A DNA stretch of 64,000 bases from Mesohalobacter salilacus (GTDB lineage Bacteria > Bacteroidota > Bacteroidia > Flavobacteriales > Flavobacteriaceae). The notes under the pieces are model-generated. The model made no database searches. It was not told the origin of the DNA and saw only the letters and a list, made by a program, of their open reading frames with translations. Of this stretch, positions 16,773 through 64,000 are shown piece by piece (position 1 is the stretch's first letter; every line of letters starts with the position of its first letter). Position numbers and translations under genes: made by a program. The DNA is taken from the NCBI GenBank assembly GCA_003931895.1, contig RRZV01000083.1, forward strand, positions 1-64,000, in the 5' to 3' direction.

Positions 16773-17798
16773 ATGGAAGCTACCCGAACTTTTACAGATA
16801 AAATACTACTGGTTGTAAAAGGAATTGCTATGGGCGCAGCCAATAAAGTTCCTGGCGTTTCTGGAGGTGTTGTGGCTTTTGTGGCTGGGTTTTACGAAGA
16901 GTTTATTTATTCCTTGCAAAAGTTTAATACTAAAGCTTTGCTGTTGATTGTAAATGGAAGATTTAGAAGTTTTCTTCAGTACATCAACTACAAATTTATC
17001 TGTTTGCTGATTTTAGGTATGATCATCAGCTATTTCAGCGTTTCTAAAATTTTAGACTACCTCATACTAAAATTTGAAATTTACGTTTGGGCGACGTTTT
17101 TTGGAATGATTTTAGGTTCAATTTATTACCTGAGTAAAGACTTTAATTTAAAATCTAAATCCCAAATATTATTCATGACCTTAGGAGCTGTCTGTGGTCT
17201 GTTGATTAGCATCCTAGATCCTGCAACACAAAATGACAACCTTTGGTTTGTGCTGTTGTGTGGATTTGTCAGCGTTTCTGGCATGACTTTACCGGGTTTA
17301 TCAGGCTCGTTCTTGCTTATTTTGATGGGCAATTATGTGCTACTTTTAGTCGATTCTGTGAATGCTCTTTACGATACTATTGCTGAAATTGTTCAATGGG
17401 ATTTTAGTTTTACGGACAATACACAACGTCTTCATTTACTCAAAATTCTCGGGGTGTTTACAGCGGGTTCAATTTTAGGCTTAGTAAGTATTTCTCACGT
17501 ATTAGGTTATGTTTTAAAGCGATTTAGAGACATTACTTTTGCCACAATCATTGGATTTATCACAGGAAGTTTGGGCGTAGTTTGGCCGTGGAAAGAAAAA
17601 ATACTTGACAGAAATAATGCTGGTGAAATTTTGTATGATTCAAATAATCAACCTATTATAAAAAATTATAGACGCTTTTGGCCAGACTTTGATACCTCAT
17701 CTACTTATATGGCTATTTTTTTTATATTGATAGGTGTTTCTATTATATTATTTTTAGTTTGGTACGACAAACGCAACAAAACAAAACGCCATGCATAA
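16773..17798 (+). CDS. DUF368 / PopT-type polyprenyl-phosphate transporter, copy 2
   Basis: The 341-residue paralogue has the same paired signatures, KGIAMGAANKVPGVSGG at residues 15-31 and VSGMTLPGLSGSFLL in the second half. It differs from copy 1 in having N in place of the D of GAAD, and a longer C-terminus with a basic tail. It is packed 2 bp after copy 1 and overlaps aroE by 8 bp. The tandem arrangement suggests either a heteromer or duplication with divergence. Function as in copy 1 is inferred from the family. Confidence 0.85.
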   Translation: MEATRTFTDKILLVVKGIAMGAANKVPGVSGGVVAFVAGFYEEFIYSLQKFNTKALLLIVNGRFRSFLQYINYKFICLLILGMIISYFSVSKILDYLILKFEIYVWATFFGMILGSIYYLSKDFNLKSKSQILFMTLGAVCGLLISILDPATQNDNLWFVLLCGFVSVSGMTLPGLSGSFLLILMGNYVLLLVDSVNALYDTIAEIVQWDFSFTDNTQRLHLLKILGVFTAGSILGLVSISHVLGYVLKRFRDITFATIIGFITGSLGVVWPWKEKILDRNNAGEILYDSNNQPIIKNYRRFWPDFDTSSTYMAIFFILIGVSIILFLVWYDKRNKTKRHA

Positions 17799-18519
17799 AT
17801 ACGGTTTAATTGGAAAACATATTGATTACTCTTTTTCAAAAACTTACTTTAATCAAAAGTTTAAAGACTTAAATATCAATGCCGTTTATGAGAATTTTGA
17901 TATCGATAATATTTTAAAAATCAAAACCGTATTAAATCGAGAGAAAAATTTAAAAGGTTTAAATGTGACTATACCTTACAAAGAAAGTGTAATTGAATTT
18001 TTAGATGAATTAGATAAAACCGCTAAAGCTGTTGGTGCAGTTAACACCATTAAAATTGTTAACAATAAATTATATGGCTATAATACTGATGTTTACGGGT
18101 TTATGACGTCGTTGTTTCCTTTGTTGGAGAAACACCACCAAAAAGCCTTAGTATTAGGTACTGGCGGTGCATCTAAAGCTATTTGCCACGCTTTAAAATC
18201 TTTTGATATTGCCTATAAATTAGTATCAAGACAGCCCGAATCAAACCAAATAACCTACGCTGATATCAATGAGAAAACAATAAATTCTCACCATCTTATC
18301 ATTAACTGTACACCACTTGGCACATACCCTAATATAGAAGAGTCGCCAGATATTCCTTATCAATATTTAACTTCAAAGCACTTATTGTACGATTTGGTTT
18401 ACAATCCTAAGGTCAGTACATTTTTAGCCCAAGGCAAAGCGCAAAAGACAAAGATTTGTAACGGCTATGATATGCTGAAATTTCAAGCTGAAAAGGCTTG
18501 GGAAATATGGAATAACTAA
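17791..18519 (+). CDS. aroE: Shikimate dehydrogenase (NADP+)
   Basis: The 242-residue enzyme reduces 3-dehydroshikimate in aromatic amino acid synthesis. The shikimate site is seen in DYSFSKTYF (near residue 11) and in NVTIPYKE, with the catalytic Lys; the nucleotide-binding loop is LGTGGASKA; later NCTPLGTYP and LVYNP complete the family pattern. It is somewhat shorter than E. coli AroE (272), as is common in this phylum. It is the last gene of the operon and ends one base before the stop codon of the convergent symporter gene, with no visible terminator. Confidence 0.94.
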   Translation: MHKYGLIGKHIDYSFSKTYFNQKFKDLNINAVYENFDIDNILKIKTVLNREKNLKGLNVTIPYKESVIEFLDELDKTAKAVGAVNTIKIVNNKLYGYNTDVYGFMTSLFPLLEKHHQKALVLGTGGASKAICHALKSFDIAYKLVSRQPESNQITYADINEKTINSHHLIINCTPLGTYPNIEESPDIPYQYLTSKHLLYDLVYNPKVSTFLAQGKAQKTKICNGYDMLKFQAEKAWEIWNN

Positions 18520-63035: not shown

Positions 63036-63065
63036 TTGCACGTATTAAATTAAATTGTATATTTG
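63036..63065 (+). promoter_or_regulatory. Promoter of rpsO
   Basis: TTG (63036-63038), a 19 bp spacer and TATATTTG (63058-63065) make one of the best matches to the Bacteroidetes promoter in the window, predicting a leader of about 44 nt. Confidence 0.65.
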
Positions 63066-63115
63066 CAACCGATAAAAAATTTATCATACATAATAATCAT
63101 TGAAATAATATTTGC

Positions 63116-63385
63116 ATGTATATTACATCAGAAGACAAAAAAAAATTATTTGCTAAGCACGGTAAAAATGAGAATGATACCGGGTCAACAGAAGGTCAAA
63201 TTGCATTAATGACTAAGAGAATTCAACACATTTCTCAACACTTAAAACAGAACCAAAAAGATTTCAACTCAGAAAGAGCTTTGGTTAAAACTGTTGGTAG
63301 AAGAAGAAATTTGCTTAATTATTTAATGAAAAAAGACATTACACGATACAGAGCAATCGTGAAAGATTTAGGTTTAAGAAAATAA
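63116..63385 (+). CDS. rpsO: 30S ribosomal protein S15
   Basis: The 89-residue protein binds 16S rRNA in the platform of the 30S subunit. It has the full S15 pattern: FAKHGKNENDTGSTEGQIAL, RIQHISQHLKQNQKDF and LVKTVGRRRNLLNYLMKKD. Length is standard. It precedes pnp as in most bacteria, but here a terminator and a new promoter lie between the two genes. Confidence 0.97.
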   Translation: MYITSEDKKKLFAKHGKNENDTGSTEGQIALMTKRIQHISQHLKQNQKDFNSERALVKTVGRRRNLLNYLMKKDITRYRAIVKDLGLRK

Positions 63386-63398
63386 ATCTCCTAACCAG

Positions 63399-63423
63399 AA
63401 AGGGGCTTTTTGCCCCTTTTTTT
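63399..63423 (+). terminator. Rho-independent terminator of rpsO
   Basis: AAAGGGGC / GCCCCTTT around a TTTTT loop, followed by a T run. It lies 14 bp after the rpsO stop codon; its loop also supplies the TTG of the pnp promoter. Confidence 0.9.
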
Positions 63424-63437
63424 ATGTTTTAAATTTG
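63410..63437 (+). promoter_or_regulatory. Promoter of pnp, partly inside the rpsO terminator
   Basis: TTG (63410-63412) lies in the terminator loop; TAAATTTG (63430-63437) is an exact -7 match at 17 bp. Start near 63443 is predicted. Confidence 0.55.
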
Positions 63438-63446
63438 CTTTCCTTT

Positions 63447-63517
63447 ATTTAAGTTTCCTTTGGTCTTTACATTATCAACAACACAACCGGACCGTCACGA
63501 TAGGCGGAAACTTAAAT
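63447..63517 (+). promoter_or_regulatory. Long stem-loop in the pnp 5' leader
   Basis: ATTTAAGTTTCC (63447-63458) and GGAAACTTAAAT (63506-63517) form a perfect 12 bp stem enclosing 47 nt, beginning about 4 nt after the predicted transcript start and ending 11 nt before the pnp ATG. In enterobacteria a pnp leader stem is cut by RNase III as part of PNPase self-control; a similar role is an inference. Confidence 0.65.
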
Positions 63518-63528
63518 TATAAATAATT

Positions 63529-64000
63529 ATGATTCCAAAAACATTTAAAGAGGCAATAGACCTCGGTGATGGTAGAGAAATTACTATCGAAACAGGAAAA
63601 CTCGCCAAACAAGCCCATGGCGCAGTTGAAGTAAGAATGGGAAATGCCGTCTTATTATGTACAGTTGTATCCTCATATACACCTACTAGTATGGACTTTT
63701 TCCCACTCACTTTAGATTACAGAGAAAAATTTGCTGCTGCAGGTCGTTATCCTGGTGGATTTATGAAACGAGAAGCACGACCAAGTAACGAAGAAATTCT
63801 CGTTATGAGATTAGTTGATAGAGTTTTAAGACCTTTGTTTCCAAGCGATTATAAGTTCGAAACTCAAGTAATGATTCAACTTATGTCTCATGATGATGAA
63901 GTGATGCCTGATGCTCTTGCCGGTCTTGCTGCTTCAGCTGCTATTCAACTTTCAGACATTCCGTTTGAATATCCAATATCTGAAGTCAGAGTTGGTCGAG
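63529..64000 (+). CDS. pnp: Polyribonucleotide nucleotidyltransferase (5' part)
   Basis: The frame starts at ATG 63529 and continues past the window end; 157 codons are present. It reads [20 protein letters not shown], then [20 protein letters not shown] and the RNase PH-like signature [40 protein letters not shown] and LFPSDY. This is the N-terminal RNase PH domain of PNPase, a phosphorolytic 3'-5' exoribonuclease of mRNA decay. The N-terminal domain lacks catalysis in other PNPases. The open frame continues to the end without a stop. Confidence 0.97.

Follow-up and report, generated by a model that had tools for sequence, protein, structure and literature searches.

How pnp, the gene for polynucleotide phosphorylase (PNPase), is expressed and controlled in Mesohalobacter salilacus is a question raised by the short interval that separates it from rpsO. 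The window, by which we mean the whole stretch of 64,000 nucleotides analysed, ends within this locus, and all features described here lie on its forward (+) strand. The S15-Flavobacteria leader of rpsO (Rfam RF03161; positions 63058 to 63118; cmscan 67.1 bits, E 8.6e-9) is followed by rpsO itself (63116 to 63385), an open reading frame for the 89-residue ribosomal protein S15 that is syntenic in relatives by tblastn. An intrinsic terminator (63397 to 63421) comes next, and then the pnp leader and the pnp open reading frame, which starts with the ATG at 63529, encodes a PNPase of 726 amino acids and runs beyond the window end at 64000. A terminator was called by script at the matching position in 135 of the 162 rpsO-pnp intergenic regions of relatives, which had been gathered by way of pnp, and is missing where the interval has little length. 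At eight loci (L065, L071, L084, L086, L093, L095, L100 and L168) the leader almost abuts the rpsO stop codon and the terminator is absent; the genomes concerned are compact, mostly uncultured, marine-type Flavobacteriaceae, and in leaders of this type the closing helix can extend to the pnp start codon.

The claim of a preliminary description that the pnp leader is structured holds. With the terminator included, the fold of the 161-nt region has a free energy of -33.3 kcal/mol (z -2.99) and beats 197 of 200 shuffles, the other 3 being as good, while the leader alone, without the terminator, has a fold z of about -2.0. The letters also agree with the 12-bp closing stem that had been pointed out, in which the 5' strand ATTTAAGTTTCC (63447 to 63458) faces its perfect complement GGAAACTTAAAT (63506 to 63517) across a loop of 47 nt, the stem ending 11 nt before the pnp ATG. 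Perfect 12-bp stems with a loop of at most 60 nt number 15 in the entire 64-kb window, and the chance expectation for one in a 105-nt leader is about 0.02-0.03; a single such stem is unusual and by itself not decisive. Comparison with the four nearest relatives brought out compensatory changes: in alignment A3, a small set of five sequences made up of the window and these relatives, four pairs are changed on both sides, which 2 of 500 shuffles reach. In a Psychroflexus-type set (n = 10), three pairs are changed on both sides, a count reached by 8 of 500 shuffles, and leader similarity places the genus of the window with Psychroflexus (L070, L072, L076).

The main feature of the leader, overlooked in the preliminary description, is what the stem encloses. 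Nearly all Flavobacteriaceae rpsO-pnp intergenic regions carry a strand (A)GUUUUUCAUUGGUC, then an A/C-only segment with ACAACACAAC, then a strand GACCAUUGUUUAAC; the element consists, in its loop, of (C)AUUGG followed by the A/C-only segment CAACAACACAAC, the whole closed by a helix. An A/C run of at least 9 nt with ACACAAC is present in 152 of 176 leaders, against an expectation of 0.0023 per 130 nt for the same loci, and the specific order of A and C (ACAACACAAC) is maintained across about 150 leaders; UUUUCAUUGG is invariant in alignments A1 and A2. Hairpins of variable sequence occupy fixed sites on either side of the A/C run, the downstream one being P3, and in the interval that leads from the closing helix to the ATG, and the distance from leader to pnp ATG varies among species. 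The unbroken closing helix has 5-8 bp in most members, and just 4 of 148 leaders have one of at least 12 bp. The 12-bp stem is the local version of this family helix, a lineage form of it, and in the window the A/C loop motif ACAACACAAC (63476 to 63488) sits inside this covarying stem.

The A/C-rich motif, here CAACAACACAACC at 63476 to 63488, is single-stranded in the window fold with an unpaired probability of 0.97. The minimum free energy fold also contains an inner helix between GGUCU (63462 to 63466) and GGACC (63489 to 63493), of which one pair is changed on both sides in A3; GGUC is the form that the P1 helix takes in most relatives (GGUC/GACC). An alternative inner hairpin, P3 (CCGTCACGATAGGCGG, 63492 to 63507), reads CCGUC-ACGAUA-GGCGG in the window and is incompatible with part of the inner helix and with the 12-bp stem's innermost pairs. 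Support for P3 comes from covariation in alignment A5 and from blastn-short, which matches the window loop to other genera; the hairpin is common to the window, Muricauda, Croceivirga and others.

Helices P1 and P3 covary beyond every shuffle. On the structure-blind alignment A1 (28 leaders), P1 is paired in 86.2% of cells compared with 82.2% in shuffles, 0 of 500 shuffles being as high, and slid controls give 64% at most. On A2 (51 leaders) the figure is 94.7%, both sides are altered in 22 cells, and again 0 of 500 shuffles are as high; many of the A2 rows were gathered with a structure-aware model and so lean towards P1; in both cases the cells tally sequences, not events. The changes include U-A to G-C and C-G to U-A, and in Flavobacterium GGUC/GACC is swapped for GGGUUUUAG/CUAAAACCC, a change at the level of the genus. 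For P3 on A5, five of six pairs are changed on both sides (0 of 500 shuffles as high). For P0 (AAAAGCU/AGUUUUU), a hairpin lying upstream, 98.8% of cells are paired but covariation is zero, and it is unproven. RNAalifold predicted no consensus structure on the 28 leaders of A1 because the inserted hairpins misalign, and we therefore turned to tests of named pairs.

A helix encloses the loop in 66 of 103 leaders versus 44 in shuffles, a moderate excess only. In Polaribacter and Tenacibaculum, CCAUUGG and the A/C run are kept and the enclosing helix is weak, absent or different, a pattern which suggests that the sequence itself may be what is recognised. Individual loci of these two genera (L055-L058, L077, L078, L081) retain UUCCAUUG(G) together with a long A/C run, with P1 weak or absent. 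In Aquimarina (L047, L049, L050, L051) the A/C motif is likewise retained, and the closing helix is apparently rebuilt as UUGUCUC/GAGACAA.

The element marks one gene in one family. R1, a covariance model whose training sequences came from other genera and did not include the window copy, matches 129 of 149 Flavobacteriaceae genomes, or 117 of the 125 of good quality, mostly once in each, and among the best 30 R1 loci all 30 lie between rpsO and pnp. Scans at the level of order, class and phylum returned strong R1 matches in Flavobacteriaceae again and nowhere else, no convincing outside copy being found, and the motif is absent, as judged by eye, from the regions upstream of pnp in sister families. 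We rejected a multi-gene regulon: the weak second R1 matches, several of them within coding sequence, on inspection resemble chance. One weak match falls in the window itself, at 17748 to 17801 (+), with 19.0 bits and E 0.22, and is probably chance. A dispersed repeat or mobile element was also rejected, the pnp leader being unique in its own genome.

R1 finds no match on the window leader, and its scores in two near relatives, L010 (20.7 bits) and L012 (16.6 bits), are marginal. The window copy is nevertheless a diverged member of the Flavobacteriaceae pnp leader element, because of its position, its A/C motif, the P3 hairpin that it shares, and the blastn-short matches of its loop to leaders of other genera, among them L113 (95% over 22 nt) and L054 (87.5% over 32 nt). 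Like most other members, it is a single copy between rpsO and pnp.

It had been proposed that pnp has a promoter of its own, with a -33 element in the loop of the rpsO terminator, and that the stem begins the resulting transcript. The letters are indeed present: a TTG (63410 to 63412) falls in the loop of the terminator, and further on, at 63430 to 63437, TAAATTTG could serve as a -7 box, with a gap of 17 nt from TTG to TA. Of the three nearest relatives, L012 keeps both boxes, but L010 and L011 are without the loop TTG, and a near-match to the -7 box survives in only one of the latter pair. According to Guerin et al. (PMC9723704), the main sigma factor of Flavobacterium psychrophilum has TAnnTTTG as its -7 box. 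As a positive control for the search, this box is found ahead of rpsO in 157 of 160 loci versus 8.6 expected, in most cases at 60-64 nt from the ATG, yet ahead of the pnp leader it occurs in 5 of 145 loci versus 6.3 expected and is not enriched; an alternative box, TAnnTTGY, is unconvincing at 8 of 145 versus 4.8. Furthermore, in nine lineages there is virtually no space for a promoter between the rpsO stop codon and the pnp leader. No conserved promoter precedes the leader, the sharing of bases between terminator and promoter is not supported, and the box in the window is probably a chance occurrence as a conserved feature, as is the promoter inside the terminator loop. We regard a separate pnp promoter at this place as very improbable.

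With no enriched box ahead of pnp and nine lineages that lack the room for one, read-through from rpsO is therefore the simplest source of pnp transcripts. The first bases of the rpsO leader, TATATTTG (63058 to 63065), fit the sigma-A -7 box TAnnTTTG, and the promoter of rpsO, which by read-through would also serve pnp, probably lies here. The first eight positions of the RF03161 model match the same box, and the 5' end of that model may represent promoter DNA that is not transcribed.

We propose, with a probability of about one half, that the leader is a cis-regulatory RNA carried on the rpsO-pnp read-through mRNA, that its loop is bound by a protein which controls pnp, and that PNPase is the likeliest ligand, acting by negative feedback. 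According to this model, pnp would mostly be transcribed by polymerase that starts at the strong rpsO promoter and passes the terminator, and the element would thus usually lie inside a processed or dicistronic mRNA. The helix, of 5-8 unbroken base pairs in most species and 12 here, would display single-stranded CAACAACACAAC beside (U)CAUUGG, and binding of a protein to this loop would set the stability or the translation of the pnp mRNA. PNPase, through its KH and S1 domains, would be the most probable such protein; the whole PNPase reading frame of relative L199 has RNase_PH, PNPase, KH (KH_1) and S1 domains. The leader is retained even directly 3' of the rpsO stop codon, which counts for a regulatory RNA on the read-through mRNA. 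Since the conserved part is a short helix with an A/C loop and not a long duplex, a protein-binding leader is preferred, and since the element marks pnp alone, a signal specific to pnp is favoured, with PNPase preferred as the ligand. The more specific proposal that PNPase itself, via KH and S1 and without RNase III, recognises the CAACAACACAAC loop in the leader of its mRNA directly, as a new autoregulatory class, is one that we advance only tentatively; a binding preference of PNPase for CAACACAAC was not found in the literature. If true, it would be a sequence-specific PNPase operator restricted to one bacterial family.

Other routes to the same arrangement have to be weighed against PNPase feedback through the loop. 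In the mode familiar from E. coli, RNase III would cleave the leader stem and PNPase would degrade the freed strand, destabilising the pnp mRNA. The window copy, with its perfect 12-bp stem and a second inner helix, might fit such a scheme, an RNase III gene is present (G000:C74, E 3.1e-47, slightly under the TIGR02191 cut-off) alongside a PNPase with KH and S1, and RNase III represses pnp in E. coli and other bacteria (PMC8708148). What the scheme lacks is a long duplex conserved across the group: the closing helix is short for RNase III in most leaders, the 4 of 148 with at least 12 bp (the window has 12) being too few for the E. coli-style stem to stand as a general rule, and conservation is concentrated in the single-stranded loop. 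We therefore consider cleavage of this kind rather improbable.

Another RNA-binding protein might instead read the loop and tune pnp, in the cold for instance; candidates are a single-RRM Rbp, a cold-shock protein and ribosomal protein S1. In E. coli, pnp has been tied to cold adaptation (PMC8708148). The strand UUUUUCAUUGG resembles U-rich and ATTGG (Y-box) cold-shock protein sites, the invariance of UUUUCAUUGG in A1 and A2 would suit such a reader, and so would the persistence of CCAUUGG in Polaribacter and Tenacibaculum, where an enclosing helix is predicted to be absent or different. A general binder, however, should mark several genes, and R1 finds the motif before pnp only; Bacteroides RbpB, moreover, favours AU-rich sites (PMC11697453). 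A ligand of this kind is unlikely, if less so than a role for the leader as a processing or stability element without feedback, in which the folds would shield or set the 5' end of the pnp mRNA once it is parted from rpsO and the A/C run would be a mere unstructured spacer. The presence of terminator and leader between both genes in most species, the hairpins of variable sequence and length at fixed places, and the variable distance to the ATG are what a passive element would be expected to give, but a spacer has no need of the order of A and C (ACAACACAAC) that is kept in about 150 leaders, and we judge this explanation improbable too.

An Rfam 15 scan of the pnp leader in the window and 12 relatives matched zero families, on which ground a known Rfam family was rejected; in the window RF03161 alone passes, at rpsO. 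A description of the Flavobacteriaceae pnp leader was not found in the literature within our scope, outside which lie Table S7 of PMC9723704 and a 224-motif survey (10.1093/nar/gkx699). A related setting is that of a study reporting 64 structured 5' regions in Flavobacterium psychrophilum, some conserved in the family (Guerin 2021, PMC9723704), which likewise concerns structured 5' regions in a member of the Flavobacteriaceae; its main text names pheA, hisG, ftsY, acsA, alaS and rimP and leaves pnp and rpsO unnamed, Table S7 being outside this comparison. With the S15-Flavobacteria leader (RF03161, PMC7247131) the element shares operon and taxon, but that leader precedes rpsO, not pnp, and differs in sequence and fold. 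Actino-pnp (RF01688; Weinberg 2010, PMC2864571) is similarly a conserved, pnp-linked cis-regulatory RNA of one bacterial group, although it belongs to Actinomycetales only and, while part of the library scanned, is without a match in the window or the 12 relatives.

Leader RNAs of pnp are known, and the Flavobacteriaceae version with its A/C loop, absent from Rfam, adds to them. As a compact element it lends itself to defined mutants in genetically tractable species such as F. johnsoniae, and its covariance model could join RNA databases. For E. coli it is established that pnp is under feedback through its leader (reviews: PMC3997798 and PMC8708148; also PMC6431027), where an RNase III-processed stem mediates autocontrol by PNPase (Portier 1987 and Jarrige 2001, as cited in PMC3997798 and PMC6431027). 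RNase III acts as a repressor of pnp in E. coli, B. burgdorferi, S. coelicolor, S. pyogenes and C. jejuni (PMC8708148). Leader structure is known to govern pnp in several phyla, mostly via RNase III. The Flavobacteriaceae leader, known here from sequence, resembles that of E. coli in lying between rpsO and pnp, after the rpsO terminator, and in being structured near the pnp start. It differs in its short closing helix and in that the conserved part is a single-stranded A/C loop, a combination which suggests a different route to the same control.
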